This document shows positions 508-52,344 of a DNA stretch of 64,000 bases, piece after piece. The notes under the pieces are model-generated. The model was not told the DNA's origin. It searched no databases and was given only the letters and a program-made list of their open reading frames with translations. Both the position numbers and the translations under genes were made by a program. This DNA comes from an uncultured Flavobacteriaceae bacterium (lineage in GTDB: Bacteria > Bacteroidota > Bacteroidia > Flavobacteriales > Flavobacteriaceae). Position 1 is the first letter of the stretch. Each line of letters begins with the position of its first letter. The DNA lies in assembly GCA_947502975.1 (NCBI GenBank), contig CANNBV010000001.1, positions 372,001 to 436,000 on the forward strand, in the 5' to 3' direction.

Positions 508-516
508 TAACAGAAA

Positions 517-1101: not shown

Positions 1102-1120
1102 GTTTAATTTTACTGAATAC

Positions 1121-1144
1121 TGAAACTGAAACTGAGACTGAGAC
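1121..1144. repeat. short hexanucleotide tandem repeat between yicC and gmk
   Basis: Four consecutive six-base units, TGAAAC twice then TGAGAC twice, sit in the 54-bp spacer between the yicC stop and the gmk start. No coding role is seen. Tract-length change could alter the gmk leader, but that is only inference. Confidence 0.6.
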
Positions 1145-1155
1145 TGGAAACTATA

Positions 1156-2013
1156 TTAAAGGACATTCAATAATTGTTCCTTAATTTTTTCTAGCTCATC
1201 TTTCATCTGAACTACCAATTGTTGCATTGGGGCGTAATTACTTTTAGATCCAATAGTGTTTATTTCTCTTCCCATTTCTTGACTAATAAACCCAAGTTTT
1301 TTTCCGTTTGAATCTTTGGAGTTAATGGATTCTGTAAAGTAATTTAAGTGGTTTTTTAAGCGTACTTTTTCTTCGGTAATATCAAATTTTTCAATGTAAT
1401 ATACAAGCTCTTGTTCAAAGCGGTTTTCGTCATATTTTTCTCGTAGTTCTGCAACACCTTTTTTAAGTCGTTCCCTTACACCTTCTACGCGTTCAGGATC
1501 CATTTCAATAACTTTATCAAGAATATTTCCTATACTAACAACGCGATTATTAAAATCTTTTTCTAAAACCGTTCCTTCATTCAATCTGTGTTTTATCAAA
1601 TCTTCAGTAGCTAAATCTATGCTGTTAGAAATTGCAGTCCACTCACTTTCATCAATTTCTTCTCTTACGGTATTTAATGCATCTGGAAATCTAACGGCCA
1701 TTTCTAAAAGTTTTGCAGCATCAGCATCCACAATGTCTTTTAGTTGAGACATATATTGTTTTACGACAGGTGTGTTTATTTGGGTTGAAGTATCTTCAGC
1801 AGTGGCTTCAACAAAAATAGAAAAATCGATTTTACCACGAACTAACTTATCGGCCAATAACTTTCTAATGGTTAATTCCTTCTCTCTATAGATTGAAGGC
1901 ATACGTGCATTTAAGTCTAAATTTTTACTGTTAAGAGATTTTAGCTCAATAGTAATTTTTTTTGTTGGTAGTTGTAAAACAGATTTTCCATAACCTGTCA
2001 TTGAATAAATCAT
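1156..2013 (-). CDS. YicC/YloC family endoribonuclease
   Basis: YicC-family proteins are hexameric endoribonucleases involved in RNA turnover. I place the start at the internal ATG at 2013 because the protein then begins MIYSMTGYGK, the near-universal family N-terminus; the upstream extension to 2052 adds 13 unlike residues. The resulting 285 residues match the family length. The C-terminal end, with FISQEMGREINTIGSK and the following helix, is the conserved DUF1732 region. It is first in a yicC-gmk-nadD run and divergent from the FGE-like gene at 2151. Confidence 0.92.
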   Translation of the reverse strand: MIYSMTGYGKSVLQLPTKKITIELKSLNSKNLDLNARMPSIYREKELTIRKLLADKLVRGKIDFSIFVEATAEDTSTQINTPVVKQYMSQLKDIVDADAAKLLEMAVRFPDALNTVREEIDESEWTAISNSIDLATEDLIKHRLNEGTVLEKDFNNRVVSIGNILDKVIEMDPERVEGVRERLKKGVAELREKYDENRFEQELVYYIEKFDITEEKVRLKNHLNYFTESINSKDSNGKKLGFISQEMGREINTIGSKSNYAPMQQLVVQMKDELEKIKEQLLNVL

Positions 2014-2150
2014 ACAAAATGTTTTAGATATGCAAAGGTAATTATGAAACAATGAAAACGGGTAAAATTGTGTAAAAAAAACACTTTACAGATGAAGCTA
2101 ATAGTATTTACAATAATTAATAAATACTTTTGATAAAAATTTAATGTTCA

Positions 2151-35004: not shown

Positions 35005-35155
35005 TAATACAATTATTTATTCTAATACCAAAAGTGTTAGAATTAAAAAAGAATAATTAATTAGATTATCTGTAATTAATATTATTGTAGTGAAAAGAGT
35101 TTAGTTCTTATTTAAGAACATTTGTTAGCAACTTTTTTTGATTGAAAATAGAGAA

Positions 35156-35190
35156 TAAAAAAAGCCTTATCAAAATTTTGATAAGGCTTT
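35156..35190 (-). terminator. original tRNA-Leu terminator, now displaced by the island
   Basis: A perfect 15-bp inverted repeat (35161-35175 with 35176-35190, arms AAAGCCTTATCAAAA and its complement) is followed by T on the minus strand. It abuts the left attachment repeat, so before insertion it would have sat directly behind the tRNA-Leu 3' end. Confidence 0.8.
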
Positions 35191-35203
35191 GTACTCAAGG
35201 TGG
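35190..35203. repeat. left attachment repeat (attL-like)
   Basis: TGTACTCAAGGTGG, identical to the last bases of tRNA-Leu at 52261-52274 in the same orientation. It marks the distal end of the integrated element, 177 bp before the integrase gene. Confidence 0.85.
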
Positions 35204-35343: not shown

Positions 35344-35363
35344 AATCGTACAATAATCGTACA
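35344..35363. repeat. integrase arm-type site, left copy
   Basis: AATCGTACAATAATCGTACA: two AATCGTACA units with an 11-bp period. An identical 20-bp copy lies at 52184-52203. It ends 17 bp before the integrase ATG and so overlaps its promoter region, which would allow autoregulation. Confidence 0.75.
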
Positions 35364-35380: not shown

Positions 35381-36652
35381 ATGGCAGCTGTAAACTACCT
35401 ATATCGCTCAAAAAAGGAGAAGGCTTTCTTAAATTTAAGGCTACTTTTTACTCATAATCATACAGATTTTGTTTATGGTGCCAAAACCAAACTGGAAGTA
35501 AGTAAGCTATATTGGGAAAAATATCATACCCAGAAAAGTCCGAAAGATATAGATATAAAGAATCAACAAATTGAAGTTAACACAGAATTAAACAAGATTG
35601 AGAATCATATTCTGGAAGCATTTCACAGTACAGCTCCAGAGAAGATTGATAAAGCTTGGTTAGCAAATCAGATAGATTTATATTATAATCCTCCAGAAAA
35701 GGCTAAAGATTTACCCACTGATTTACTGTCATATTTTGATTTCTATCTTGATGCCAGAAAAAACGAGTTAGCCCAACAGACATTAAAAAACTATAAGGTT
35801 GTACGTAAATTAGTAGAGAAATATGAGGAGGAGATCGATAGAAATATTAAAATAATAGACGTCGATTCTACTTTTAAAACAAGATTTGAGTCATTTTGCT
35901 TAGAAAAAGGTTACTCTGTTAACACCATTGCAAGATGTGTCCACACAGTAAAATCTGTTTGCAAACATGCTATGTATAATGGTATAGAGGTAAGTCCACA
36001 ATTGGACAGAATAAAGCTTAAAGAAGTTAAGGTAGATAAAATATACCTAACACTTGAAGAAATTGAAACCATCAAAAAGCTTACTAAAAAAAAGCTTACT
36101 GACAGCCTAATCAATGCACGCGATTGGTTAATTATTAGTTGCTTTACAGGACAACGAATTTCTGACTTTATGAGATTTAAGAAATCTATGATTAGGTATG
36201 AAAAAAACAGCAAAGGTGAATTGAAACCACTTTTAGAGTTTACTCAAAAGAAAACAGGTAAGATTATGACTATTCCTCTACATCCTGAAGTATTAAAAAT
36301 TCTAAACAAGAGAAAAGGCAATTTTCCAAGACCTATTTCAAGCCAGAAATACAATGTCTACATCAAAAAGGTATGTGCAAAAGCAGAAATTAATACTAAG
36401 ATTAAAAGCAGTAAGCTTAGTAAATTTGAGGATAGTGGTAAGTTCCCTTACAGAAAAATAGAGGGTGAGTATGAAAAATGGGAGTTGGTAACATCCCATA
36501 TTGGACGTAGGTCTTTTGCAACTAATTTCTACGGTGAGTACCCTACAAGCTATCTAACTTACATGACAGGTCATAAAACCGAACAGATGTTTCTAAATTA
36601 TATAGGTAAGAGCAATAAGGATATTGCTTTGGAACTAACTAAATACTTTTAA
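35381..36652 (+). CDS. tyrosine recombinase (site-specific integrase)
   Basis: Integrates and excises the element. 423 residues: N-terminal arm-binding region, SAM-like core-binding domain (about 110-200), and catalytic domain with Arg259 in TGQRISDF, His373 and Arg376 in SHIGRRSF, His398 in TGHKT, and the nucleophile Tyr407 in LNYIG. All catalytic residues are present, so it should be active. It is the first gene inside the left attachment repeat and reads into the island; tandem arm-like sites sit immediately upstream. Confidence 0.95.
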   Translation: MAAVNYLYRSKKEKAFLNLRLLFTHNHTDFVYGAKTKLEVSKLYWEKYHTQKSPKDIDIKNQQIEVNTELNKIENHILEAFHSTAPEKIDKAWLANQIDLYYNPPEKAKDLPTDLLSYFDFYLDARKNELAQQTLKNYKVVRKLVEKYEEEIDRNIKIIDVDSTFKTRFESFCLEKGYSVNTIARCVHTVKSVCKHAMYNGIEVSPQLDRIKLKEVKVDKIYLTLEEIETIKKLTKKKLTDSLINARDWLIISCFTGQRISDFMRFKKSMIRYEKNSKGELKPLLEFTQKKTGKIMTIPLHPEVLKILNKRKGNFPRPISSQKYNVYIKKVCAKAEINTKIKSSKLSKFEDSGKFPYRKIEGEYEKWELVTSHIGRRSFATNFYGEYPTSYLTYMTGHKTEQMFLNYIGKSNKDIALELTKYF

Positions 36653-40023: not shown

Positions 40024-40677
40024 ATGAGCTCAGAATTAAAAATAAGTGAGTTAAAACAAAAAATAAATTCTATAAGGAAGAAGAGTTTTGAAATTAATCT
40101 TGAATCACTTCTGTTGTTATGTGAATCCAATATTGAAAAGCAATTTCTACTGCAAATAATCTTTCATCTTGAATCTCAAACATTATCAATATTAAATGCG
40201 TCATCAATATGTAATTCGATATATTTTATAGATGATGTCCATAGAGATAACTATATAATAGGTATTGAGTACGATTATGGTTTGGAAAAAAGCAAAATCG
40301 AGTGGAATGTAGAATCTACAAAATTAACTTTGCCATTAGCAAGCGAATACCATAATGTCATAAGACTATATCCCCAATTTAAGGTTGAAATTAATAATTC
40401 TGTATACATTTTAGATTTTGCTTTTTATGTAGAAAGGTGGCATACTAAAAAAGATGAATTGCATGAAACAAGGAAGATTGCCATAGAATGTGATGGCTAT
40501 GATTATCACAAAGACCCTGTGAAATTTAAGCAGGATAAAATTAGAGAGCGAGCATTAAAAAGCAATGGATGGAAAGATGTTTTAAGGTATTCTGGAAGTG
40601 AAATTTATGAAATAAGTGATGATTTAGTTAAATCACATTATAACTTCAAAGAAATTCTAGACACCATTATGTATTAA
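40024..40677 (+). CDS. DUF559-type endonuclease-like protein
   Basis: 217 residues. The C-terminal third has the VSR-like/DUF559 nuclease pattern: KIAIECDGYDYH (catalytic Glu and Asp), then KFKQDKIRERALKSNGWKDVLRYSGSEIY. The N-terminal 110 residues are unrecognised and helical. These PD-(D/E)XK-related proteins are common in mobile elements, but their substrates are mostly unknown. It stands alone between the XRE repressor and a 167-bp spacer. Nuclease activity is inferred from the motif. Confidence 0.72.
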   Translation: MSSELKISELKQKINSIRKKSFEINLESLLLLCESNIEKQFLLQIIFHLESQTLSILNASSICNSIYFIDDVHRDNYIIGIEYDYGLEKSKIEWNVESTKLTLPLASEYHNVIRLYPQFKVEINNSVYILDFAFYVERWHTKKDELHETRKIAIECDGYDYHKDPVKFKQDKIRERALKSNGWKDVLRYSGSEIYEISDDLVKSHYNFKEILDTIMY

Positions 40678-40844
40678 CCATACCCCATAATAAACAACCA
40701 AAAGATTCTACCCCCTCCTTTTTTTTAATTTTTATTGTATACCCCGCATAGGTTACCACCTCTAACATCAACCCCACTTATGAATTAGGCAGGTGGGGGT
40801 AATCCCCCTTTAATAAAACTGCGATAACTAAAATTCATTTTATT

Positions 40845-41192
40845 ATGGTAACTGTAAAAGAAATTAAAACAGCCGAAAACTCGCAGGGGGAAAAATTCTA
40901 TGGCTTAATTGTTCAATCTGGTGCTGTTCCAGTAAAAAGCAAGCGAACAGGTAGGGTTTACTTTACAGCAAAGACAGCATTTGTTGCTACTACTTTTGAC
41001 GAAGAAACTGCAACATCATTAATTGGGACACAGTTTGAAGGAACTATCAGAAAAATACCTACTGACCCTTATGAATATACCATTGAAGAGACAGGCGAGG
41101 TTATTGAGTTAGCACATCGATGGGAATATTTTGACCCAGCTCTTGACCTTGAAGAGCAGATAGTCGATATAGCTGACATTATGCAAGCCTAG
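40845..41192 (+). CDS. hypothetical protein beside a Sak4-like ATPase (possible ssDNA-binding protein)
   Basis: 115 residues, beta-rich, acidic C-terminus (DPALDLEEQIVDIADIMQA). The segment GEKFYGLIVQSGAVPVKSKRTGRVYFTAKTAFVATTF has alternating strands compatible with an OB-fold, and in phage genomes Sak4-type ATPases are often next to a single-strand binding protein. I do not recognise the family, so binding ssDNA is only an inference from neighbours and composition. Confidence 0.5.
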   Translation: MVTVKEIKTAENSQGEKFYGLIVQSGAVPVKSKRTGRVYFTAKTAFVATTFDEETATSLIGTQFEGTIRKIPTDPYEYTIEETGEVIELAHRWEYFDPALDLEEQIVDIADIMQA

Positions 41193-41272
41193 TATTAATT
41201 TAGTCTTAAGAGTTTATCACACAAGTGGTAGACTCTTTTTTTTTATCAAACTATATGTAAAAAATAGAAATT

Positions 41273-42184
41273 ATGCAATTACAACAAACAAAACGCCACA
41301 ATGTAAAACTTCGATTGGGTATCTCTGGAGCAAGTGGTTTCGGTAAGACCTACTCTGCATTACAATTGGCTTATGGAATGACCAATGATTGGTCTAAAAT
41401 AGCTGTTATAGATACAGAAAATTCATCAGCTAGTTTATATTCAGATTTAGGTAATTTTAATGTACTAAACCTTAAACCACCTTTCTGTCCAGAACGCTAT
41501 ATCAGAGCAATTGAAACTTGTGAAAAAGCAGGTATGAAAGTGATTATTATAGATTCCATAACTCACGAATGGCAAGGAGATGGGGGCTGTTTACAAATTC
41601 ACGAACAATTAGGAGGAAGATTTCAAGATTGGGCAAAAATCAAACCAAGACACCAAAAGTTTATTGATGCTATTCTGCACTCTGGATGCCACATCATTAC
41701 AACCACCAGAAGGAAAACGGATTATTCTATGGATACAGGTTCAAATGGGAAGTCCAGAGTAATTAAACATGGCACCAAAGAAATAACCTCTGATGGTTTT
41801 GAATACGAACTTACTGTAAACTTTGAGCTTATTAATGAAAATCACTTGTGCAAAGTAAGTAAAGACCGAACTAATCTGTTCCAGGGAAAACCTGAATTCG
41901 TAATAACCTCTGACACAGGTAAAACATTAAAAGCTTGGTGCAATCAAGGTATTTCTCTGGAGCAAGTCAGGCAAGAAATTAATGCAACCACAACATTAGA
42001 AGGCTTAAGGCACTTGTATCAAAAATATGACGTATTGAAAGAGCAGATAAAGCCTCTAATCATTGAACGAAAGACAGAAATCGAGAACACCAGTCAAATC
42101 GTAGAAAACAAAGACATTATTAATTCAAAAACTATCAAAAACAATGGAACTGACAACCGTACCAACTCAACAAGTGGTCAATGA
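41273..42184 (+). CDS. Sak4-like RecA-fold ATPase (AAA_24)
   Basis: 303 residues. Walker A GASGFGKTYSAL (about 20-31), Walker B KVIIIDSITHEW, and HIITTTRRKTDY as the sensor strand; this layout fits the AAA_24/Sak4 ATPases, RecA-like single-strand-annealing partners of phages and mobile elements. It probably supports recombination of the element. The C-terminal tail (TTLEGLRHLYQKYDVLKEQIKPLIIERK) is helical. Its 3' end overlaps the DUF3871 gene by 41 bp. Confidence 0.78.
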   Translation: MQLQQTKRHNVKLRLGISGASGFGKTYSALQLAYGMTNDWSKIAVIDTENSSASLYSDLGNFNVLNLKPPFCPERYIRAIETCEKAGMKVIIIDSITHEWQGDGGCLQIHEQLGGRFQDWAKIKPRHQKFIDAILHSGCHIITTTRRKTDYSMDTGSNGKSRVIKHGTKEITSDGFEYELTVNFELINENHLCKVSKDRTNLFQGKPEFVITSDTGKTLKAWCNQGISLEQVRQEINATTTLEGLRHLYQKYDVLKEQIKPLIIERKTEIENTSQIVENKDIINSKTIKNNGTDNRTNSTSGQ

Positions 42185-43151
42185 ACACGAGGTAGTATCT
42201 TCTGCTATTTCAAACAATAATAACTTTATTGAGGCAAACACACAGCAGGTTACACTTTCACATTTAAAGCAAGATTGTATTATTCCTGTTTTCGCTAAGG
42301 ATAACGAAAATACTATACCACATTACGAGTTCATAGATGCAGTGAGAACAACAGTACAGCAATTGTTTCCAGAAGGAACGGTAATGATGCCAAATATTAG
42401 GACATCTCATGTTATAAAAGGCAGAACACCTTCAGCAATTAGTAAATCTGCAAAGGATTTATTAGAGCATGAAAAGACAATTTACTATGAGCGTATGGCT
42501 TTTATGGTAGAAATACCTCACATACATTTATATATAAATAATCAAAAGCTTAATCTTACTGTAGGTGGGGTACGCTCTTACTCTGAACAAAACTTATATT
42601 CCAAAAAGAGCATCGAAAAATTTAAGATTTTCATCGGATTTAAAAATTTGGTGTGTTGTAATCTATGTATTGCCACAGATGGCTTGAAAGATGATTTACG
42701 TGTTAGTAGTATTGATGAGTTAAAACAAAAATCCAAGGAACTTTTTCTAACATTTAATCAAGAAGCTCAAGGTGAAACAATGCGAAATATGCAGAGTTAC
42801 ATTATAAATCAAGAACAGTTTGCTCATTTAATTGGTAAGATGAAGTTATATAACCATTTGTCTAAAAATCAAAAACAAGGATTATTCGATTTAAAGACAA
42901 CAGATTCACAGATTAACAACATACTCAAAAATTATATTGAAGATGAACATTTTAAGTCTGATTCAAATGGCTACATCAATCTCTGGAGTCTTTACAACCT
43001 ATTCACAGATAGCAGTAAAAGTAATTATATAGATAACTTTTTAAGTAGAAATTGTAATTCTTACGAGTTTGTTAATCATCTGAAAGATGCTCTTAAAAAT
43101 CATGGAGACAACTATTTTTTACCAACTCAGGACATAGTCCATCAACAGTAA
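42144..43151 (+). CDS. DUF3871 family protein
   Basis: 335 residues, matching the pattern of DUF3871, a family found in Bacteroidota mobile elements and phages: TPSAISKSAKDLLEHEKTIYYERMAFMVEIPHIH and VGGVRSYSEQNLYSKKS are characteristic. Function unknown. The start overlaps the upstream ATPase by 41 bp; no better Met is available without losing the conserved N-terminal region. Coupled expression with the Sak4-like ATPase suggests a shared recombination or replication role. Confidence 0.75.
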   Translation: MELTTVPTQQVVNEHEVVSSAISNNNNFIEANTQQVTLSHLKQDCIIPVFAKDNENTIPHYEFIDAVRTTVQQLFPEGTVMMPNIRTSHVIKGRTPSAISKSAKDLLEHEKTIYYERMAFMVEIPHIHLYINNQKLNLTVGGVRSYSEQNLYSKKSIEKFKIFIGFKNLVCCNLCIATDGLKDDLRVSSIDELKQKSKELFLTFNQEAQGETMRNMQSYIINQEQFAHLIGKMKLYNHLSKNQKQGLFDLKTTDSQINNILKNYIEDEHFKSDSNGYINLWSLYNLFTDSSKSNYIDNFLSRNCNSYEFVNHLKDALKNHGDNYFLPTQDIVHQQ

Positions 43152-43166
43152 CATATTTTATTATAA

Positions 43167-43415
43167 ATGAGCAATAAAGAACTAATTGAGCTTTTAAAAT
43201 CTTGCTCACCAAATATCATTTATATAATTGACGAACAAAATCACATTTTAAAGTTAGAAACACCATTGAAGCTTTTAGTAGTAGCCAATATTGGAAATTT
43301 TCAGAAATACCAAACAGTAGTTTGCACAGAATTGAAGATTACTACAAAAGGAAAAATAGTGTTTCATATAGATGGTGAAAACTATCATACTTATTATTTC
43401 GACTTTATAACATAA
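43167..43415 (+). CDS. hypothetical protein
   Basis: 82 residues, 15 bp after the DUF3871 gene, same strand. It alternates short hydrophobic strands (NIIYIIDEQNHILKLE; KIVFHIDGENYHTYYFDF), consistent with a small beta-rich fold. No family recognised. It is followed by a hairpin at 43541-43571 that separates this block from the restriction operon. Confidence 0.5.
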   Translation: MSNKELIELLKSCSPNIIYIIDEQNHILKLETPLKLLVVANIGNFQKYQTVVCTELKITTKGKIVFHIDGENYHTYYFDFIT

Positions 43416-43540
43416 TAAATGATAGAGAGCATTATGCTGTATCTTTTGATTTCTTAAATAAGAAATATTTTCTGAGACGGTTTTGGCTCTATAATCCTAA
43501 AACCACTGAGAAAATCTACTCTTGAGACTACTTTAGATAT

Positions 43541-43571
43541 AAACCTAATCACAATAAATGTGATTAGGTTT
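43541..43571 (+). terminator. hairpin between recombination block and restriction operon
   Basis: Thirteen-base perfect arms AAACCTAATCACA and complement with a 5-nt loop. The following bases are AT-rich but lack a solid T run, so termination may be partial. Confidence 0.6.
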
Positions 43572-43602
43572 AATATTATTATAGTATGTTGATTAAATAG
43601 TG

Positions 43603-43635
43603 ATAAAAATATAATGCATTACGTTATATTTTTAT
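43603..43635 (+). promoter_or_regulatory. C-box-like inverted repeat upstream of the controller gene
   Basis: Perfect 12-bp arms ATAAAAATATAA and TTATATTTTTAT around a 9-bp centre, ending 38 bp before the controller ATG. Controller (C) proteins of restriction systems bind palindromes at their own promoter to delay nuclease expression after entry into a new host. The centre also holds TAATGCATTA, itself a palindrome. Confidence 0.6.
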
Positions 43636-43673
43636 AATCATATATTTATATTAGACAACACAAATTTTCATGT

Positions 43674-43862
43674 ATGAATCGTATCAAAGAAGTACTTGAA
43701 GAAAAGGGTATTAAGCAGGTTTGGTTGGCTAATAAGCTAGGGAAAAGTTTTAATACCGTAAATGGTTATATACAAAATAGAACACAACCAAGTTTAGTAA
43801 TACTTTATGAAATAGCTGAAATATTGGGTGTAGAAGCAAAAGAATTATTGAATGACAAATAA
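43674..43862 (+). CDS. controller-type XRE HTH protein of the restriction operon
   Basis: 62 residues that are almost wholly an HTH: KGIKQVWLANKLGKSFNTVNGYIQNRTQPSLVILYEIAEILGVEAKELL. Size and position at the head of a restriction-modification operon match C proteins, which time methylase and nuclease expression. The next gene overlaps its end by 11 bp. Specific control here is inferred from the inverted repeat at its promoter. Confidence 0.85.
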   Translation: MNRIKEVLEEKGIKQVWLANKLGKSFNTVNGYIQNRTQPSLVILYEIAEILGVEAKELLNDK

Positions 43863-44379
43863 ATTTTTCATCAAACACGTTTTACCCTGCATGAGGGAAT
43901 TTAGTGTTATAAACTTACCATCGTATTTGGATCGTGAATTAAATAAAAAATGTATTGACTTGTTAAAGTTTGGAAATGAATCAGAATTAAAGCAAAAACA
44001 TGAGGGTTTTAGCTTTGTGAAAACATTTTCTCTGGAATTTCTAGGTAAAATTGCTTTAAAAAAACATTTAGGGTTAGAATTTAAAAATGATGTTTTGAAT
44101 GCAGAAATTCATTTTGATAGAAGTATTGTCCATAATAATAGAAAGTATGATTTAGTTTTTTTTGATTTTGATAAAATTCCAAAAATAAACCCAGATTGTA
44201 TAAATGATTCCATTTTTATTATGAGAAATAATAATCAAAAATTTTATATCTGTGGTAAGTCTGATAAAAATACTATTAAAGATAACCTGTCCATCGATGC
44301 ATTAAATTTCTCAATATATAACGAAAGATATTCTGGTTTTATAGGTTTTAATCAATTAGAAAAAGTAAATGAATCATAA
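43852..44379 (+). CDS. hypothetical protein within the restriction operon
   Basis: 175 residues, unrecognised. It overlaps the controller gene by 11 bp and the first methyltransferase by 11 bp, so it is an integral operon member. The central part (AEIHFDRSIVHNNRKYDLVFFDFD, then KFYICGKSDKN) alternates strands with a D-x(n)-G-K-x-D arrangement, vaguely like a degenerate nuclease fold, but I would not claim it. The published four-gene LlaJI system has no counterpart that I know of. Confidence 0.6.
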   Translation: MTNKFFIKHVLPCMREFSVINLPSYLDRELNKKCIDLLKFGNESELKQKHEGFSFVKTFSLEFLGKIALKKHLGLEFKNDVLNAEIHFDRSIVHNNRKYDLVFFDFDKIPKINPDCINDSIFIMRNNNQKFYICGKSDKNTIKDNLSIDALNFSIYNERYSGFIGFNQLEKVNES

Positions 44380-45568
44380 TTTCCCATTAGAAACACTTAA
44401 AGAGCTTCATAAACCACAAATGGATTATTTAATTAGTGAGTTTAATAAAGTTCAAAAAGAAGCTATCCAGATAAAATTTAAACATAAATCATTTAATGTT
44501 AATAAAGACAAATCTGTTCTCGAATCTAAAATACATTCTATTGGTTTGTTTTCTGGAGCGGGTGGTTTAGATATTGGTGCTCAATTAGCAGGTTCAAAAG
44601 TTATTTCTAGTTTAGATTTTGATTCTGATAGTGTAAGAACATTGAGTGCTAATAAATATTTTAAACACACCAATCATTTTCATAAAGATATAAGGGATAT
44701 AGATGCAAACTTATATAAAGATATTTTAAAAAAAAATAATCCAGAAAAACTAATTCTAATAGGTGGTCCACCATGTCAACCATTTTCAAAAGCTGGTTAT
44801 TGGAAAAAGCACGAAAATCGTTTAGGGAGTGAAGACCCTAGAAATATGATTGGTAATTATTTGCGTTTAATTGAAGATATAAAGCCATCAGGCTTTATAT
44901 TGGAAAACGTTGAAAGCCTATTACATCCAAAAAATGTAGAGGCTGTAGAAAAACTTGAAGAAGCAATTGAAAAATTAGGTTATTATCACATAAAGCTTCG
45001 TGCTAATTCAGCTGACTTTGGTGTACCACAAAAAAGAAAAAGAGTTTTTTTTATTGCATCCAAGAATAAAATTAATTCTGAACCATTGAAAACTCATGGT
45101 TCTGAAAAGGAAAGAAATCTCAATAATAATTTAAAACCTTATGAACGAGTAATAGATTGGATAGGAAAATATGATGATATAAAGTATTCTGATGATTATG
45201 ATTCAACAGAAGGTAAGTATTTTGAAGATTTGATGGCTGTGCCTCCCGGACAAAATTATATCGCTTTAACAGAAAAAAGAGGTTACCCTAACCCCCAATT
45301 CATTGCAGGAAAGAGATATTGGTCTTTTCTTTTAAAGTTACATCCTTTTTTACCATCTTGGACTATAATAGCATCACCTGGTCATTGGGAAGGTCCTTTT
45401 CATTGGACTGGTAGACGTTTGAGATTGAAAGAATTAGCAGGTATTCAAACATTTCCTGAAGATTATAACTTTGTTGGTTCAAGACGCTCAATACAAAAGC
45501 AAATAGGAAATGCAGTACCACCTTTAATGGGTAAAGTCGTTGTTGAACACTTAATAAAGCATCTTTAA
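44369..45568 (+). CDS. DNA (cytosine-5) methyltransferase, first of pair
   Basis: 399 residues. Motif I GLFSGAGGLDIGAQL, motif IV GGPPCQPFSKAG with catalytic Cys136, motif VI ENVESL, motif VIII PQKRKRVFFIA and motif X QIGNAVPPLMGKVVVEHL are all present. A 65-residue N-terminal extension precedes motif I. The part between VIII and X, where target recognition lies, shares PPGxNY, LTEKRG/PNP, RYW, FLLKL, PSWTI and GPFHW with the second methyltransferase. It protects host DNA by m5C on one strand of the restriction site; the site itself is not readable from sequence. Confidence 0.95.
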   Translation: MNHNFPLETLKELHKPQMDYLISEFNKVQKEAIQIKFKHKSFNVNKDKSVLESKIHSIGLFSGAGGLDIGAQLAGSKVISSLDFDSDSVRTLSANKYFKHTNHFHKDIRDIDANLYKDILKKNNPEKLILIGGPPCQPFSKAGYWKKHENRLGSEDPRNMIGNYLRLIEDIKPSGFILENVESLLHPKNVEAVEKLEEAIEKLGYYHIKLRANSADFGVPQKRKRVFFIASKNKINSEPLKTHGSEKERNLNNNLKPYERVIDWIGKYDDIKYSDDYDSTEGKYFEDLMAVPPGQNYIALTEKRGYPNPQFIAGKRYWSFLLKLHPFLPSWTIIASPGHWEGPFHWTGRRLRLKELAGIQTFPEDYNFVGSRRSIQKQIGNAVPPLMGKVVVEHLIKHL

Positions 45569-45569
45569 A

Positions 45570-46592
45570 ATGGCTAATATAATAAGTTTGTTTTCTGGGT
45601 GTGGTGGTCTAGATTTAGGTTTTAAAAAAGCTGGATTTAAAACGGTATTTGCGACAGATGTTTGGGATATTGCCTGTAATACTTTAATACATAACAATAT
45701 TGCAGATACAGTAATCAACGACGATATAAGAAATATTGATTTTAAGAAGTTTAATAATAATGTTGATGGAGTTATAGGTGGTCCACCGTGTCCACCATTT
45801 AGTCAGTCAAGGCATTATTTGACAAATAAAAAAAGTGGTTTTTCTGATGAAAAAGCAGGTTTTGCAGTACCCGAATATTTTAGAGTTATAAAAGAGGTAA
45901 ATCCTAGATTTTTTGTTTTTGAAAATGTAGATGGGTTTATGTATAAAACACATAAAGACGCATTAGATTTTTTAACTCAAACATCAGAAAGTTTAGGATA
46001 TGAAGTAACATTTAAAGTAGTTAATGCAGCTAACTATGGTGTTCCACAAACAAGGAAGCGATTTATATGTGTTGGTGTGAAAAAGGGTATGGGAAAATTC
46101 AAGTTTCCAAATGAAACACATGCTGAACCCAAAAAAATTAATGGTTCAAAAAAGAGTTGGGTAACCTGTGGTGATGTTTTGAATGATTATGATTTTGTGA
46201 CTGAAGAAGAATTAAACCAAAAGCCAGGTTCTAAACATCATTATCTTTTGAGTGAAATTCCACCAGGAGATAATTATTTATACTTTACTGAAAAGAGAGG
46301 TCATCCAAATCCAATTTTTAAATGGAAATCTAGGTATTGGACTTTTTTATTAAAACTAACAACTGAAAGACCATCTTGGACTATTCAAGCTAGCTTTTCT
46401 AATAATCAAGGTCCCTTTCACTGGAAAAATAGATTTTTAAGAGCGGAAGAAATTAAGAGATTACAAACAATTGATGATGATTATGAAATTTTAGGGGATT
46501 TTAAACAGCAATGGAGACAGATAGGTAATGCAGTACCTTCCAAGTTAGCTTACATTTTTGCAAATAAAATAAAAGAAGATTATGAGATATGA
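45570..46592 (+). CDS. DNA (cytosine-5) methyltransferase, second of pair
   Basis: 340 residues. Motif I SLFSGCGGLDLGFKKAGF, motif IV GGPPCPPFSQSRHY with catalytic Cys74 (PCP rather than PCQ), ENVDGF, PQTRKRFICVG and QIGNAVPSKLAYIFANKI. It starts 1 bp after the first methyltransferase and overlaps the McrB-like gene by 11 bp. In LlaJI, two m5C enzymes each modify one strand of an asymmetric site; the same division is expected here. Confidence 0.95.
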   Translation: MANIISLFSGCGGLDLGFKKAGFKTVFATDVWDIACNTLIHNNIADTVINDDIRNIDFKKFNNNVDGVIGGPPCPPFSQSRHYLTNKKSGFSDEKAGFAVPEYFRVIKEVNPRFFVFENVDGFMYKTHKDALDFLTQTSESLGYEVTFKVVNAANYGVPQTRKRFICVGVKKGMGKFKFPNETHAEPKKINGSKKSWVTCGDVLNDYDFVTEEELNQKPGSKHHYLLSEIPPGDNYLYFTEKRGHPNPIFKWKSRYWTFLLKLTTERPSWTIQASFSNNQGPFHWKNRFLRAEEIKRLQTIDDDYEILGDFKQQWRQIGNAVPSKLAYIFANKIKEDYEI

Positions 46593-48129
46593 ATTAAATC
46601 AATCAAGTGAAATAGTTGAGTATAATGGAGGTACTCAATTCATTGCCGATACAAATAATACAATTATAGAATTGTTTTCACAAGGAATATATAGTTGTAA
46701 TATCACTAATCAGGATGGTTCTGTTTATACTCTAGAAATTACAAACACTATAAACAATGCTGTTAATACTATTCTTCTTTTTTATGGTAATGTAAGGAAT
46801 GAAAGTAGAAATCCATCAGAGAAGAAAATACAACTTAATGGTAAAGACCCAAGAAACTCAAATACTCCTGCTATTATTTTGGGTTTATATTGTTATGATA
46901 CAAATGATGTTTTGGCTGATTTAATTTGTTGTGGTTGGAATGTTGATGATACAGTAAACTATCCAGGCAATCCAAGTATAAGAGGTATAAATGTTCAAAT
47001 GTTTCAAGAAGCTAGGTTTAATGGTTTTGTAAAAAAGGATTACAGAAATAATACGGTATGTGTTTTTAGGCCTGAATTTATTTTTTATTATTTAGAATCT
47101 AAAAATGAACATCATACCTCTACTGAAAATCAAAATGTAGGAATTACAGATACAGAAACTTCATTAGAAAATGGTATTCAAAAAATCTTCTATGGTGCCC
47201 CAGGTACAGGAAAATCTCATAAAGTAAAAAGTCTTGTAAATGGTAAGGATACCAGAATGCAAAGGGTTACGTTTCATCCAGAATTTGATTATGCTTCTTT
47301 TGTTGGTGGTTACAAACCTACAATGGCAGATGAAGATGGCAAAGAAGTAATAAAATACAAGTTTGTACCACAAGCATTTACCAACATTTACGTTAAGGCT
47401 TGGAATGACCCAGAGCAAGATTATTATTTAGTAATTGAGGAAATTAATAGAGGGAATTGTGCAGAGATATTTGGAGATATTTTTCAATTATTAGACAGAG
47501 ATTCAGATTACGACATCACACCATCAATTGAATTAGAAGCCTACCTAAAAGCTGAACTTTCTGATGAAGATAAAGGTTTAGAAAATGGTAAGCTAAAACT
47601 ACCTAATAACCTTACTATTTATGCAACAATGAATACATCAGACCAATCATTGTTTCCTATGGATAGTGCTTTTAAAAGAAGATGGGATTGGGAATATATT
47701 CCAATATGCTATGAAGAATTAACAGATGAAGGAAATTCAAATCCATCATTTAACTATACAATAGATTTAGGTAATGGTGCATCTTTTAAATGGAATGAGT
47801 TCATATCTAAAGTAAACCTTAATCACATCCAACAAAACCCTGTTTTGGGAATGGATAAATGTATGGGGAATTATTTTGTAAAACCTAAAAATGGGGAAAC
47901 AACTATAGATGTTGAAACCTTTATAAATAAAGCTATTTTTTATCTGTGGAACGATGTGTTTAAGGATGAAAAGAATGAGGTGTTTGAAAAAAATAGTTCC
48001 TACGAAGATTTCTTTCCGATTAAAACGAAAGGGGTACAAAAACTAACAGAATTATTAGAGCGTATAGAGGTTACAGTAAATACCGCTCCAAAAGAATCAG
48101 CACCTGTACAAGATGAAGTTACTAATTGA
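46582..48129 (+). CDS. McrB-like AAA+ GTPase, LlaJI R1-type restriction subunit
   Basis: 515 residues: an N-terminal DNA-recognition candidate (about 1-180; unrecognised, rich in strands), then an AAA+ motor with Walker A GAPGTGKS (205-212), Walker B YLVIEEINRGN with Glu286 and Glu287, and the McrB-type MNTSDQS sequence at 350-356 (compare MNTADRS). In LlaJI this subunit binds the unmethylated site and translocates DNA, with the R2 nuclease cutting. Overlaps of 11 bp upstream and 17 bp downstream bind it to the operon. GTP rather than ATP use is family knowledge. Confidence 0.9.
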   Translation: MRYELNQSSEIVEYNGGTQFIADTNNTIIELFSQGIYSCNITNQDGSVYTLEITNTINNAVNTILLFYGNVRNESRNPSEKKIQLNGKDPRNSNTPAIILGLYCYDTNDVLADLICCGWNVDDTVNYPGNPSIRGINVQMFQEARFNGFVKKDYRNNTVCVFRPEFIFYYLESKNEHHTSTENQNVGITDTETSLENGIQKIFYGAPGTGKSHKVKSLVNGKDTRMQRVTFHPEFDYASFVGGYKPTMADEDGKEVIKYKFVPQAFTNIYVKAWNDPEQDYYLVIEEINRGNCAEIFGDIFQLLDRDSDYDITPSIELEAYLKAELSDEDKGLENGKLKLPNNLTIYATMNTSDQSLFPMDSAFKRRWDWEYIPICYEELTDEGNSNPSFNYTIDLGNGASFKWNEFISKVNLNHIQQNPVLGMDKCMGNYFVKPKNGETTIDVETFINKAIFYLWNDVFKDEKNEVFEKNSSYEDFFPIKTKGVQKLTELLERIEVTVNTAPKESAPVQDEVTN

Positions 48130-49789
48130 GGAAGAAGAATATCCAGTTGATTTACTCGAAAGTATCTTTGATGATTTAAAGTTTTACAAACAAAACGGTT
48201 TAAAGGGTACTTTAAAAATGGTAGGTTATTACCACTCTTACAAAAAGAAAGAGTTGGTTTTAATGCTTCCTAAAGTTTTTATGCAAAATGGGGTAGAAAC
48301 TGTTTTTAATGGCTCTAAAGATGAACTTTATAATTCCCTAGAGCAAACATCTATCAAACACGACTCAAAATACCAATGGTTAAGAGAGTTAAGTATTCAT
48401 TTTTATAATAGTTTAGTTGAGTATAATAACCGTTGGAATCAAACCGGTTTAATCTCTCCATCTCGTACTTTTGAATTAAATACCAATTTAGGTGAAGATA
48501 ATTACTCGTATTTAGACATCGTTTTAAGTATCGTAAACTTCTATAAGAAAAATAAAAACCACATTCTATATCGTCATATAGAACAGGTTACTAATAATGC
48601 TTCAAAGCCTAAATGGGAGAAAACAATTAGAAAATCTTTGCCTTTAATGGCAAATTCTAAAACTCCAATTTATTTTAATATCCGCAACAAAAGAAAAGTA
48701 GTTAACACAGAGGAAGAATTAATTACATATTTCTTTTCAATCCTAAATCACTTAAATAATCAACATAACTTAAACCTTAAAATAGATAAGTCTTATAAGC
48801 TATTTAAAGACGATGCTTTTATTAATTTATGTAAAGATGAATATGGTTTAAGAAAACTAAAGAAAATTAAATACCGCTACTTTAATGATACTCTAAAAAG
48901 GATGTATGAACTATGCGAATTGTATTTTTCAAATAGCGATTACGCAAGTAGCAAAAAGGAAAAAGAAGAGTTTCTTTGCGCCAACAATTACAATATTATT
49001 TTCGAGGATATGATTGATAAGCTGTTTACCGATAAAATAGCTGAAGACGAAAATATCCAAAACTTAAAGAAAAATAAGGATGGTAAGATTATCGACCATA
49101 TTTACGAGGATAAATCTTTAATAGATAGAAGTAATATCTTTTTTATTGGAGATTCTAAATACTATAAATCAGATAATACAGCAGGTCAAAACTCAAAGTA
49201 CAAGCAAATTACCTATGCTAAAAATATCATTCAATACAATATAGATTTATGGAATACAAAAGGTGAATTTCATAATGAGAATATAAGGTATAGGGATGAT
49301 GAAACAGAAGGTTACAACATTACACCAAACTTTTTTATCTATGGTCATATCGAAGACCCTAACGATTTTGAAAATCCTCAAATAATTCAAAAAACACCAA
49401 AACCAGAAGTTTCATACCATTGGTCAGATAGATTGTTCGATAGAGATACATTATTTGTACACCAATATTCAATAAATTTTCTATTCGTTTTAAAATCATA
49501 TACAGCCTACAATAGTTATAAATTAAAGTCCTTTAGAGACGATGTGAAAAAGAAGTTTAGATCTGGATTTATTGATTATTTCAATAATGCAGAAGATTGT
49601 GGCTTTACATTTTATCAATGTACATTACAGCCATCAGAGTTTCCTAATTACATAAGAAATCGCTTTAAAGATTTTAATGGTAAATCAATCATTACACAAG
49701 ACAATAGATTAATTATTGCCATACATCAAAATGATGTTAGCCTTGATAATTGCTTATTGGATTTTGAAGCATTAGAAAACTTTCAATAA
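48113..49789 (+). CDS. LlaJI-family restriction endonuclease subunit (McrC-like)
   Basis: 558 residues. The N-terminal part (GLKGTLKMVGYYHSYKKKELVLMLPKVFM) and overall layout match the LlaJI restriction-endonuclease family. A PD-(D/E)XK-type nuclease core is visible: Asp328 in KIIDHIY and Asp347-Ser-Lys349 in FFIGDSKYYKS. It overlaps the McrB-like gene by 17 bp. Together they form the cleaving complex; the two methyltransferases upstream protect the host. Confidence 0.88.
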   Translation: MKLLIEEEEYPVDLLESIFDDLKFYKQNGLKGTLKMVGYYHSYKKKELVLMLPKVFMQNGVETVFNGSKDELYNSLEQTSIKHDSKYQWLRELSIHFYNSLVEYNNRWNQTGLISPSRTFELNTNLGEDNYSYLDIVLSIVNFYKKNKNHILYRHIEQVTNNASKPKWEKTIRKSLPLMANSKTPIYFNIRNKRKVVNTEEELITYFFSILNHLNNQHNLNLKIDKSYKLFKDDAFINLCKDEYGLRKLKKIKYRYFNDTLKRMYELCELYFSNSDYASSKKEKEEFLCANNYNIIFEDMIDKLFTDKIAEDENIQNLKKNKDGKIIDHIYEDKSLIDRSNIFFIGDSKYYKSDNTAGQNSKYKQITYAKNIIQYNIDLWNTKGEFHNENIRYRDDETEGYNITPNFFIYGHIEDPNDFENPQIIQKTPKPEVSYHWSDRLFDRDTLFVHQYSINFLFVLKSYTAYNSYKLKSFRDDVKKKFRSGFIDYFNNAEDCGFTFYQCTLQPSEFPNYIRNRFKDFNGKSIITQDNRLIIAIHQNDVSLDNCLLDFEALENFQ

Positions 49790-49799
49790 TATTTAATTT

Positions 49800-51041
49800 A
49801 TGAACCTACACGATTTAAGACAAGCTCAAGTAAATTATTTAGAGAGAATAGAAGATGTCAAAAAAAGTAGGGAAAAACTGCATAAATTAAGAAAGAAGTT
49901 TGTCAAGGATTTTTCCCTGGAGTATTTACCTAATATGCCTATTGAAAAATATGTTATAGGTCAAGGGAAAACAAACTTCTGCAGAAGACTAGAAAGAGAA
50001 CTAGATGGCTTAGGTCGCATTTTAGGTTCTAATGCTTTTAAGTTTGGAGTTTATTACGGTATAACTAAAAATGATCCAAATATTATTTACAGAAATGCTA
50101 AAAAATGGGGTGATAGTCCTAAATCAGCATATGCTAATCTTAGACCATCTTTAATAAAACTTATTAAAGATGGTAAAGACAACAGATTAGCTGAGATTTC
50201 CAAAAATAAGATATCACCAACATTTAAAGGAAAAATTTTAGCGACCTACTACCCTGAAAGATATTTAAATGTTTTTTCAAATGAACATCTCGATCACTTC
50301 TTGAAATTTTTTAATTTAGATACACCTAGTTTAATAAGGTCTAACCCCGTTCTTAAAAGAGATGCTTTATTGCAATTTAAAAATGAAGATGAGATAATGC
50401 GTGACTGGTCAGCAGATTTATTTGGTAACTTCTTATACTTTGAATACCCAAAGAGACCGCGAAAAAAATCTGAACTGGAAAATAACTTATTGAAAGATTA
50501 TTTGAACCCCAAATTCCCTATAAACCCTGTTGCAAGTGAAATTTCTTTAGACATCTTACCAAATCCACATCAATCTAATCAGAGAAATCATAACTATAAT
50601 AATTCAAAACCTAATTACGAGAAAAAAAACAGATTAAATAAAAAATTAGGAGACAGAGGAGAAAAAGTTGTTAAGGATTTTGAAATAATTAGACTTAATA
50701 AACTTAATAGACCCGACTTAGCAAAAAAAGTAGATAGGGTTTCCTTAAAGTCAGATAGCTTGGGGTATGATATACTATCGTATGAACATGATAATTCTAA
50801 AAGATATATTGAAGTGAAAGCAACTCGTGCTAAGGTTGGAGACGCTAATTTCTTTTTGACCTTAAATGAACTTAATACAGCAAAAGAAAATCAGAATTAC
50901 TACATATATGTTGTATTTGATATATTATCTAAGAACCCAAAAATATGGATAATTAACAATCCTTTTAACCCAGAAAATGAAAATATAAATATGACGCCAA
51001 TAAGCTATAGAATAAATATAAAAACAGAGAAAACTAATTAA
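49800..51041 (+). CDS. McrB-N-like/DUF3883 two-domain protein, probable nuclease
   Basis: 413 residues, 10 bp after the LlaJI nuclease. The N-terminal half (about 40-215) resembles the non-motor N-terminal region of McrB-like proteins: MPIEKYVIGQGKTNFCRRLE, GRILGSNAFKFGVYY. The C-terminal part (about 280-405) is DUF3883: GDRGEKVVKDFE, then Asp324 in GYDI and Glu338-Val-Lys340 in YIEVKAT, an intact PD-(D/E)XK set. There is no AAA motor. It could be a stand-alone modification-dependent nuclease, or a partner for the McrB-like GTPase. Both domain calls are by pattern. Confidence 0.7.
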   Translation: MNLHDLRQAQVNYLERIEDVKKSREKLHKLRKKFVKDFSLEYLPNMPIEKYVIGQGKTNFCRRLERELDGLGRILGSNAFKFGVYYGITKNDPNIIYRNAKKWGDSPKSAYANLRPSLIKLIKDGKDNRLAEISKNKISPTFKGKILATYYPERYLNVFSNEHLDHFLKFFNLDTPSLIRSNPVLKRDALLQFKNEDEIMRDWSADLFGNFLYFEYPKRPRKKSELENNLLKDYLNPKFPINPVASEISLDILPNPHQSNQRNHNYNNSKPNYEKKNRLNKKLGDRGEKVVKDFEIIRLNKLNRPDLAKKVDRVSLKSDSLGYDILSYEHDNSKRYIEVKATRAKVGDANFFLTLNELNTAKENQNYYIYVVFDILSKNPKIWIINNPFNPENENINMTPISYRINIKTEKTN

Positions 51042-51053
51042 AAAGTCTTTATT

Positions 51054-52124
51054 ATGACACTTATAGTAGGTTGTATATCTGAGGACTTTGGGATTATTTC
51101 TGGTGATACTCAACTAAGTATTGGGGATTTAGAAAGAGGAACGAGTTTTAGAAGAGAAAGTCAAATAAAAATTCATCGCCCAAGTGCTAATCTGATGTAT
51201 GGTATCATGGGAAAATGGAGTCATTATATTCCAATAGAAGGGCAACCAGGTAAAGTTTCAATTATCAATCATTATGATTTGATGCGTAGAGGTGTAAATC
51301 GAGAGGATAATAAAAGTACATATATAAAAAGATTCTTAAGGGATAAAACAGGTATTGACGCAACTGTTTTAATAATTGAGAAAAGCTCAAATAACATTTT
51401 TTCAATAGATGATTGTTCCAATTTGCCAAACAACGATTTGTCGGAACTTAGAATTGGAAACTTAACATTCAAATTTAACGAACCATTTTCATCAATTAAT
51501 GGCAACTATATTAGCTCAATCATTAATGAGTTTTATGATTCAAATGAGTTGACTTGCTCAGTATTAGATGTACTGTTTTTAATAAATAATATTCAGTTAA
51601 AAGTAATTTCACAAGGTCAAAATTTTAACATGGTGGACGAAAATAATGTTACGCAAGTCGTTTCCACTAATTCTGTAGGAGGTGTTGTGAATTTATCTTT
51701 GATTACAGATCAAAACAACTCATGGAATAATTTGGGAAATCCTTACAGTCAAGATATGAATACATTGTTAGATAGAACAACATATCCTTTTTCGAATTAT
51801 GTATATTATCACAAAGCTATTAGATACATTGACAATCTTTCAATGCTGATTAGAAATATTTATGAGCCTTTTAATAATAATATCAGAGAAACCTTGATAG
51901 AGCTCGTAGAAAAACAAATTACTTTCATTGGTGAAGAAAATATAGTTTCAAGAGAGTATATGAATGAAATAATATCGCACATCAATATCAAATATACTTT
52001 AGATATCTCAACAATAGAAGCTAATGAAAATGAACAGGATGAGAATGAAATAAATATAGAAAATTTAGTTTTGGATGGCATTCAGGACACCGTAGATTTA
52101 AATTATCTTCTAAGATTTTTTTAG
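51054..52124 (+). CDS. proteasome-like Ntn-hydrolase candidate
   Basis: 356 residues, 12 bp after the DUF3883 gene, last in the operon. The N-terminus TLIVGCISEDFGIISGDTQLS resembles proteasome beta/HslV subunits: if Met is removed Thr becomes residue 1, Asp falls at 17 exactly as in the beta-subunit T1/D17/K33 set, and a Lys (QIKI) follows at 38. NLMYGIMGKWSHY fits the next strand. The remaining 250 residues are unrecognised and helical with an acidic tail near 325-338. A protease in a restriction operon would be new; based on motif only. Confidence 0.5.
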   Translation: MTLIVGCISEDFGIISGDTQLSIGDLERGTSFRRESQIKIHRPSANLMYGIMGKWSHYIPIEGQPGKVSIINHYDLMRRGVNREDNKSTYIKRFLRDKTGIDATVLIIEKSSNNIFSIDDCSNLPNNDLSELRIGNLTFKFNEPFSSINGNYISSIINEFYDSNELTCSVLDVLFLINNIQLKVISQGQNFNMVDENNVTQVVSTNSVGGVVNLSLITDQNNSWNNLGNPYSQDMNTLLDRTTYPFSNYVYYHKAIRYIDNLSMLIRNIYEPFNNNIRETLIELVEKQITFIGEENIVSREYMNEIISHINIKYTLDISTIEANENEQDENEINIENLVLDGIQDTVDLNYLLRFF

Positions 52125-52183: not shown

Positions 52184-52203
52184 AATCGTACAATAATCGT
52201 ACA
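52184..52203. repeat. integrase arm-type site, right copy
   Basis: AATCGTACAATAATCGTACA, identical and in the same orientation as 35344-35363. It lies 58 bp inside the right attachment repeat. Confidence 0.75.
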
Positions 52204-52260: not shown

Positions 52261-52274
52261 TGTACTCAAGGTGG
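52261..52274. repeat. right attachment repeat (within tRNA-Leu 3' end)
   Basis: TGTACTCAAGGTGG, direct copy of 35190-35203. It covers the discriminator, the acceptor 3' strand and the first bases of the T-arm side of the tRNA, so recombination here keeps the tRNA whole. Confidence 0.85.
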
Positions 52275-52344
52275 GAATCGAACCCACACTTCCGAAGAAA
52301 CTGGATTTTGAATCCAGCGCGTCTACCAATTCCGCCACTTGAGC
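52263..52344 (-). tRNA. tRNA-Leu (anticodon CAA)
   Basis: 82 nt. Acceptor GCTCAAG pairs with CTTGAGT (one G-T pair), discriminator A, no encoded CCA. The anticodon arm CTGGA-TTCAAAA-TCCAG gives CAA, reading UUG. Long variable arm (TTCTTCGGAA region) and T-arm GTGGG TTCGAAT CCCAC, as expected for leucine. Its 3' end is the integration site of the island. Confidence 0.96.

Follow-up and report, generated by a model that had tools for sequence, protein, structure and literature searches.

A mobile LlaJI-type restriction operon from a flavobacterium, ending in a probable proteasome-like gene that recurs at the ends of restriction-modification operons

The eight-gene operon

This analysis concerns an operon of eight open reading frames (ORFs) found in a 64,000-nucleotide stretch of DNA from an uncultured Flavobacteriaceae bacterium (assembly GCA_947502975.1, contig CANNBV010000001.1, positions 372,001 to 436,000). 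The whole stretch is called the window, and coordinates given without a locus name refer to it. The source genome is a 4.5-Mb assembly from the same family as the Eudoraea genome G115 (Flavobacteriaceae). Genes 3 to 6 form a restriction-modification (R-M) core of the LlaJI type, which is accompanied by a regulator (gene 1) and three further genes (2, 7, and 8). The last of these, gene 8, likely encodes a protein with a proteasome-like fold, and it and four of its five relatives are the last gene of R-M operons, which are of two types in all. The eight genes are as follows.

43674..43862, + strand: gene 1, helix-turn-helix (HTH; Cro/C1) regulator, 62 amino acids (aa) (HTH_3, 9.4e-11)
43852..44379, + strand: gene 2, 175-aa protein with no known fold assigned; two homologues at 21-25% identity
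44369..45568, + strand: gene 3, 5-methylcytosine (m5C) methyltransferase 1 (PF00145, 1.1e-53)
45570..46592, + strand: gene 4, m5C methyltransferase 2 (PF00145, 1.5e-63), 38% identical to gene 3
46582..48129, + strand: gene 5, R1, McrB-like AAA NTPase with a variable N-terminal domain (AAA_5, 7.4e-8; MTaX1, 4.9e-13)
48113..49789, + strand: gene 6, R2, predicted divergent LlaJI-type nuclease (hhalign profile comparison)
49800..51041, + strand: gene 7, predicted PD-T4-1-like DUF3883/NOV_C nuclease (PADLOC PD-T4-1, 6.6e-85; NOV_C, 7.1e-17)
51054..52124, + strand: gene 8, probable proteasome-like, N-terminal nucleophile (Ntn) protein, last gene of the operon (N-terminal motif and profile match)

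All eight ORFs lie on one strand between 43674 and 52124, and adjacent genes overlap or sit at most 12 nucleotides (nt) apart. From gene 1 to gene 8 the junctions are overlaps of 11 and 11 nt, a gap of 1 nt, overlaps of 11 and 17 nt, and gaps of 10 and 12 nt. An earlier note on this DNA had described a tightly spaced eight-gene unit, and the re-measured positions and junctions are as it stated. The G+C content of the operon is 0.294 vs. 0.326 for the window. A megablast search of plasmids with the operon returned one record, matching over 75 bases only.

Gene 8 at the ends of restriction-modification operons

The gene 8 family has six members: the window protein, L006 from Flavobacteriaceae GF1, L007 from Flavivirga, L008 from Eudoraea (genome G115), L018 (IMG/VR), and G072. 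Accepted matches came from 3 of 198 genomes in a sample of relatives, 3 of 397 in a family sample, and 1 of 395 in a class sample, the last being the source genome itself. Weaker matches in the class sample (G499, G583, G648) and the family sample (G286, G089, G465) were partial, had E values of 1e-4 to 1e-3, in some cases contained stops, and were rejected as spurious. The homologues are 27-43% identical to the window protein, and the family ranges in length from 332 to 360 aa. No match was found for gene 8 or its L018 homologue in plasmids, nor for gene 8 in phages, and none was confirmed for genes 2, 6, and 7 in viral contigs.

Five of the six members are the last gene of an R-M operon, four of these being type I and one, that of the window, LlaJI type. 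In L006, gene 8 follows HsdR, an M-S fusion, SIR2, and a HEPN-like gene; in L007 it follows HsdM, HsdS, further genes, GIY-YIG, HsdR, and a 266-aa protein. The order in L008 is HsdM, HsdS, HsdR, pentapeptide, PIN_12, and gene 8, and in L018 it is HsdM, HsdS, GmrSD, HsdR, a YgjP-like metallopeptidase, and gene 8. The gap to the preceding gene is short in each of the five (12, 6, 1, 11, and 4 nt). Downstream, the next ORF of at least 100 aa begins 284-767 nt away in L008, L006, and L007 (a 75-aa TTG ORF in L007 was ignored), while L018 has an ORF on the other strand and the window a tRNA. The site occupied by L007 and L008, in two genera, has nitroreductase-, DegT-, and RibB-like genes downstream (by reading) and differing accessories, and is a defence hotspot. 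With these two loci counted once, about four independent lineages have gene 8 at the end of an R-M operon; were as many as 1 in 100 genes to end such an operon, an assumed and unmeasured rate, four independent hits would have odds near 1e-8.

The five proteins encoded just ahead of gene 8 bear no relation to one another. Moreover, the 239-aa predecessor of gene 8 in L006 has a 44% identical homologue on a Paracoccus plasmid (L093), located behind a type I M-S gene in a 16.7-kb stretch where no gene 8 relative was found. A fixed pair of gene 8 and its predecessor was rejected on these two grounds. Because L093 carries the predecessor behind an M-S gene without gene 8, gene 8 was probably added to ready-made operons.

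Evidence for a proteasome-like fold

All six members begin with Met-Thr (T2) and share D18 and K39, so that the positions of the catalytic Thr1/Asp17 pair of proteasome-like peptidases are invariant. For profile comparison, a set was assembled from 28 HslV proteins (that of E. coli and 27 chosen by motif from 30 PF00227 loci) and three divergent PF00227 proteins termed Anbu-like. Using hhalign, the gene 8 family matched the combined set with an E value of 5.2e-5, with Thr2 placed on Thr1 and Asp18 on Asp17, and matched HslV alone with an E value of 0.0024. In 200 column shuffles the highest scores were 25.2 against the combined set (39.4 for the real alignment) and 23.7 against HslV (28.8 for the real alignment), and E was no lower than 0.27 against the combined set for any of four control alignments, drawn from three families. 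As a yardstick, HslV itself matches the Anbu-like set at only 0.045. Three members matched by a HMMER model of the combined set each aligned from residue 1. These results make a proteasome-like fold likely for gene 8, on sequence evidence of moderate strength. The Ntn-like label that the earlier note had given to gene 8 thus stands on the N-terminal motif and the profile match, with no Pfam hit behind it.

The possibility of a stray host HslV was also considered. No PF00227 match was present in any of 21 genomes, the source genome included (21/21), while 75 of 99 genomes in a phylum sample have one, and this candidate was rejected.

The LlaJI-type core

Genes 3 and 4 supply two DNA methyltransferases (PF00145) and gene 5 an R1 subunit with a McrB-like NTPase domain, as in the LlaJI system. 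Gene 5 matches the NCBIfam McrB model at 6.7e-17, yet below the cut-off of that model. It is 36% identical over 328 aa to the LlaJI R1 of pNP40, to which it aligns by tblastn only at residues 195-469, the ATPase part.

Gene 6 has no match in Pfam, PADLOC, or NCBIfam. The four members of its family, A6, were compared with five plasmid-encoded R2 proteins whose annotation names the LlaJI family, that of pNP40 among them. In the hhalign comparison the two families matched with a probability of 97.5 and an E value of 7e-12, and the GDSKYY motif of gene 6, invariant in 4/4 A6 members, was aligned on DAKYY. The best of 100 column shuffles reached an E value of 0.044, and the alignments of genes 5, 7, and 8 gave 0.36-0.39 against the same R2 set. 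Since 7e-12 far surpasses the best shuffle, gene 6 is predicted to be a distant LlaJI-type R2; its assignment to the LlaJI-family (D/E)xK nucleases comes from the profile match, and has no Pfam hit. Taken together, the sequences identify the core as a putative divergent branch of the LlaJI type. Compared with LlaJI of the Lactococcus plasmid pNP40, the operon likewise has two methyltransferases, an McrB-like R1, and a predicted R2 nuclease in the same order, but R2 is 558 aa here and 414 aa there (only 24% identity over 316 aa), and the operon adds an HTH gene and three further genes. The earlier note had likewise recognised five genes fitting the LlaJI plan; HTH_3, the two PF00145 matches, and the McrB-like gene 5 agree with this, while the nuclease is placed by profile comparison only.

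The same core was present in 3 of 397 genomes (the source genome included) and on one Pedobacter plasmid. The three other core loci are L005, L012 (G362), and L013, the last cut by a contig end 0.9 kb past R2. The core locus of G410 starts with a gene whose product shares 70% identity with that of gene 1 over 61 aa. Across the core loci, R1 is 57-64% identical after residue 190 and only 13-20% identical over residues 1-190 (gaps counted as differences). The methyltransferases vary as well: there are two cytosine types here and, by annotation, in L005, an N6/N4-type with an m5C enzyme in L012, and a D12 adenine-type in L013. R1 has been described as the sole specificity subunit of LlaJI (PMC1459862). 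The variable start of R1 and the changing methyltransferases agree with this description, and would fit an R1 N-terminus that sets recognition specificity.

In L012 (3492-8003), a pAgo gene lies 12 nt behind R2 (PADLOC, 4.8e-268), followed on the same strand by a 799-aa gene with a DISARM DrmE_C domain. In L013, a PoNi-like ORF lies at the contig end, within 0.9 kb past R2. On the evidence of two loci, the position behind R2 looks like a slot for varying defence cargo. In a LlaJI-type locus on a Lactococcus plasmid (L026, 7018-11667), R2 is followed by a gene for a 413-aa hypothetical protein and, after it, AbiA.

The three additional genes

Whether genes 2, 7, and 8 belong to the LlaJI system was examined by tblastn (E 0.001) on L005, L012, L013, and five plasmid LlaJI loci (L023-L027). 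None of the three was found in the other core loci, L013 being incomplete, nor in the plasmid loci. The same search recovered gene 5 in 8/8 loci and gene 6 in 3/8. Membership of genes 2, 7, and 8 in the LlaJI system is therefore not supported.

Elsewhere these genes have other partners: gene 2 occurs with m5C methyltransferases, gene 7 either alone or behind genes for a kinase and an ApeA-like protein, and gene 8 mostly with type I R-M. The earlier note was right to call the three foreign to LlaJI. It had also suggested an expanded LlaJI or combined Type II/Type IV system, which the results do not support: the extras are missing from other LlaJI loci and recur with other partners, and its proposed search for co-occurrence with R1 and R2 found no recurrence beside LlaJI-type genes in the eight loci. 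At E<=1, Pfam named no modified-base recognition domain, of the kind expected of a Type IV system, in any of the eight genes. The LlaJI plan itself has been described as combining Type II and Type IV features (PMC1459862). The linkage of the operon is real, and gene 8 looks R-M-linked yet not LlaJI-specific.

Gene 7 aligns with the PADLOC profile PD-T4-1 over residues 21-411 (6.6e-85), almost end to end. PD-T4-1 is listed with a PD-(D/E)xK nuclease domain in a 2023 review (PMC10952713), and D324, E338, and K340 of gene 7, chosen by reading as the PD-(D/E)xK residues, are invariant in 3/3 proteins (window, G242, and G079). Unlike PD-T4-1, gene 7 is located within an R-M operon, and its nuclease role is predicted only. 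Matches were found in 9 of 199 genomes searched, with full length in the source genome and two others. In G242 (L039, 4673-8456), the relative is third in a run after a protein kinase and an ApeA-like HEPN gene, a trio that is possibly a distinct defence operon; no kinase or ApeA-like neighbour was seen beside the relative in G079. Two larger AAA_5 proteins, in G035 and G202, begin with a region similar to the N-terminal half of gene 7 (E 6.5e-15 and 6.3e-12; 29-30% identity), and Pfam at E<=1 gave no McrB-N match for gene 7. The McrB-N/DUF3883 label of the earlier note is therefore half secured: NOV_C (DUF3883) matches at 7.1e-17 and the N-terminal half resembles AAA_5 proteins, but Pfam gives no McrB-N hit. 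Since this half resembles McrB-like proteins, gene 7 may still have a Type IV-like role.

Gene 2 gave nothing above noise in Pfam, PADLOC, or NCBIfam. It was matched in 3 of 249 genomes searched (its own, G014, and G076); by tblastn at 0.001, G076 alone of the two relatives was re-found. In G076, the homologue lies 1 nt ahead of an m5C methyltransferase gene, with a Bsp6I-type endonuclease gene next, while the G014 homologue is one gene removed from an oppositely oriented m5C methyltransferase gene. No LlaJI genes were found by tblastn beside either homologue within 14-kb stretches. The Bsp6I-like m5C R-M locus of G076 resembles the operon in having a gene 2 homologue directly ahead of an m5C methyltransferase and differs in having no gene 5 or gene 6 relative in its 14-kb stretch (tblastn). 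Our guess is that gene 2 may be related to the small subunits of type II endonucleases.

The integrative element carrying the operon

The operon is cargo at the far end of an integrase element of approximately 17.07 kb in a tRNA-Leu gene. The features of this element, and two that precede gene 1, are as follows.

35190..35203, no strand: left attachment core TGTACTCAAGGTGG, a 14-bp exact copy of the tRNA-Leu 3' end
35344..35363, no strand: left copy of a 20-bp sub-terminal direct repeat, an exact match to 52184-52203; possible integrase arm site
35381..36652, + strand: tyrosine integrase of the element (Phage_int_SAM_5, 3.5e-11; Phage_integrase, 5e-6)
43540..43572, + strand: terminator-like hairpin preceding the operon, a perfect 14-bp stem with a 5-nt loop; weak
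43594..43644, no strand: AT-rich inverted repeat 5' of gene 1, with 21-nt arms that are 81% complementary; possible operator
52184..52203, no strand: right copy of the 20-bp sub-terminal direct repeat, an exact match to 35344-35363
52261..52274, no strand: right attachment core, overlapping the tRNA-Leu 3' end; the 14-mer TGTACTCAAGGTGG is repeated at 35190 and 52261

The tRNA-Leu gene itself lies at 52262-52344, with its 3' end on the side of the element. An empty site was found in one of ten congeners compared, G009, where the match to 35154-35203 is directly joined to the match from 52261 onward; the left flanks of the remaining congeners were compared by blastn only. The empty site, the integrase, and the 14-bp repeat together define the element and place the operon at its far end. 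The hairpin has little weight as a signal, 4 such sites being observed vs. 2.9 expected in shuffles.

A related element occupies the same tRNA-Leu in congener G007 (L091, 652-8601) and matches the window at 40785-43522 (76%) and from 52183 onward. The interval between these matches measures 3.95 kb in G007 and contains, on the opposite strand, a 1084-aa Eco57I-type R-M methylase gene; in the window it measures 8.66 kb and contains the operon. Because an Eco57I-type gene takes the place of the operon, the element seems to exchange whole R-M cargoes.

The element in the window also encodes a DUF559/MTES_1575-type nuclease of 217 aa (40024-40677). In G009, a match to window 15-2044 adjoins the tRNA-Leu site, and window 2045-35153 (approximately 33 kb) is absent or elsewhere; this may be a second insertion. 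At the tRNA-Leu sites of G002, G004, and G008 the main match begins at query base 67-75, so that most of the tRNA is missing from it, and a full tRNA-Leu copy lies approximately 57-370 nt from the site. These arrangements are possibly scars of other integrations.

Comparison of gene 8 with known families

Gene 8 resembles HslV, Anbu, connectase, and the families described in a 2021 survey (PMC8665760) in its Thr1/Asp17 positions, with local profile similarity to HslV, and differs from them in its length of 332-360 aa, its lack of a Pfam match, and its R-M context. That survey reported 22 new proteasome-like families with no genomic context pointing to a specific function, and the word "restriction" is absent from its main text. 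Several of its families occur in Bacteroidetes, and the gene 8 family could be one of them. Among the matches listed in a literature search, judged by title or the start of the abstract, none linked an Ntn hydrolase or proteasome homologue with restriction-modification. Neither the CoCoNuT paper (PMC11090510) nor an R-M review (PMC12707154) uses the words proteasome or Ntn in its main text.

Accessory genes or proteases linked to R-M, as gene 8 is, are represented by PrrC/EcoprrI, PARIS, and restriction alleviation by ClpXP. These belong to enzyme classes other than that of gene 8.

A proposed role for gene 8 and its alternatives

The gene content, mobility, and modularity of the operon were observed directly in the genomes, as was the repeated placement of gene 8 at the end of R-M operons. 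From these, a mobile element would deliver one LlaJI-type restriction operon together with accessory defence genes. By analogy with known families, the two m5C methyltransferases (genes 3 and 4) would shield host DNA, the N-terminal domain of R1 would pick the site, the R1 motor would power R2, and R2 would cleave phage DNA that lacks methylation. Gene 7, the PD-T4-1-like nuclease, may form a second nuclease layer. Gene 8 would be a proteasome-like N-terminal-Thr hydrolase, a travelling accessory of R-M operons whose motors are NTP-driven, both type I and LlaJI type; its fold, catalysis, substrate, and trigger are proposed from sequence. Its targets would most likely be products of the operon to which it belongs: when restriction is blocked or misfiring, it would cleave a restriction subunit or a neighbouring effector, with the R-M system guarded or held in check as the outcome. 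We consider the whole reading, a mobile LlaJI-type operon with stacked accessory genes in which gene 8 is a portable add-on protease for R-M, to be about evenly balanced. The narrower claim is that gene 8, as a proteasome-like protease shuttling between type I and LlaJI-type operons and controlling or guarding them, represents a new class of accessory to R-M; it is tentative and falls somewhat short of an even chance.

Several results weigh against this reading. The family has only six members, and two of them, L007 and L008, occupy one chromosomal site and have HsdR proteins that are 91% identical, which leaves approximately four independent R-M lineages. The sixth and most distant member, G072 (27-32% identity), lies outside any R-M operon; an integrase gene precedes it, and the gene that follows encodes a 1772-aa NTPase with weak, below-cut-off NACHT matches (L014, 8614-15118). 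No dedicated unfoldase gene was noticed with gene 8, and its other accessories vary between operons, so its substrate cannot be named. As to the fold, Pfam assigned no proteasome family in the six members, the sole hint being a connectase N-domain in one (E 0.1), and a PDB profile search with gene 8 gave no proteasome, its one hit (0.14) being a protein called gp30. The family reached only 0.11 when compared with the Anbu-like set by itself, where shuffles scored higher (28.8 vs. 18.8) and one unrelated control did better (0.051). The invariant K39 is not aligned with Lys33 by hhalign. The HMMER model of HslV and Anbu-like proteins placed three members in the top eight of 555 ORFs at E values of 0.045-0.22, amid noise; its best hit (0.026) was a YicC-family protein, and the window gene 8 was outside the top 12. 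An HslV-only model ranked one member sixth (E 2.3). If gene 8 were not an Ntn hydrolase and its N-terminal motif coincidental, these weak single-sequence scores, the failure to exceed shuffles against the Anbu-like set, and the confinement of similarity to the first 40 residues would be expected. This is improbable, however, given that Thr directly follows Met and Asp comes exactly 16 residues later in 6/6 members, in register with HslV Thr1 and Asp17, and that 0 of 200 column shuffles did as well against HslV or the combined set.

The remaining alternatives concern what gene 8 does. It could be that genes 2, 7, and 8 are independent modules stacked on an R-M promoter, as in a defence island, with no action on R-M. 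Gene 7 occurs elsewhere alone or in another operon, the L012 core has a pAgo gene and a DrmE_C-domain gene behind R2, and no extra gene was found with this core at other loci, all of which favour stacking. Random stacking would not, however, so strongly favour the position of gene 8 at the end of R-M operons in five of six cases and for two R-M types, and we regard stacking as unlikely. Restriction alleviation and an abortive-infection guard are specific versions of the add-on-protease reading. In the former, gene 8 would degrade HsdR or R1 translocating on the unmethylated DNA of the host itself. All five R-M neighbours of gene 8 have NTP-driven restriction subunits, as this requires, but no unfoldase partner was noticed in the gene 8 operons, and HslV-type peptidases require the unfoldase HslU. 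Alleviation is in our estimate rather unlikely, even with the precedent of ClpXP-mediated HsdR degradation established for EcoKI (PMC11109961). As a guard of the R-M system, gene 8 would trigger an abortive-infection layer with the effector-like genes of its operons: SIR2, PIN, DUF3883, and possibly HEPN-like genes (match at 0.0015, below the Pfam cut-off) and membrane proteins (by reading). PrrC and PARIS are known examples of R-M guardians (PMC12707154). The gene preceding gene 8 is nevertheless unrelated in each of the five loci, being a YgjP-like metallopeptidase in L018, and a relative of the L006 predecessor sits in a type I operon that lacks gene 8; a guard is therefore on the unlikely side. 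Sequence cannot discriminate between degradation of a motor subunit and triggering of an effector by gene 8.

Significance

The core illustrates how LlaJI-type systems may evolve, with a constant motor and nuclease, an exchanged specificity domain and methyltransferases, and room for defence genes behind R2. A housekeeping protease, ClpXP, is already a case of proteolytic control over R-M through restriction alleviation. If the add-on-protease reading of gene 8 is true, regulated proteolysis would be encoded in the same operon as the R-M system, and a divergent bacterial proteasome homologue would have a genomic context that hints at its function. The recurrence of a small, probably proteasome-like family at the ends of R-M operons thus offers a concrete candidate for its role, namely protease control or guarding of restriction.

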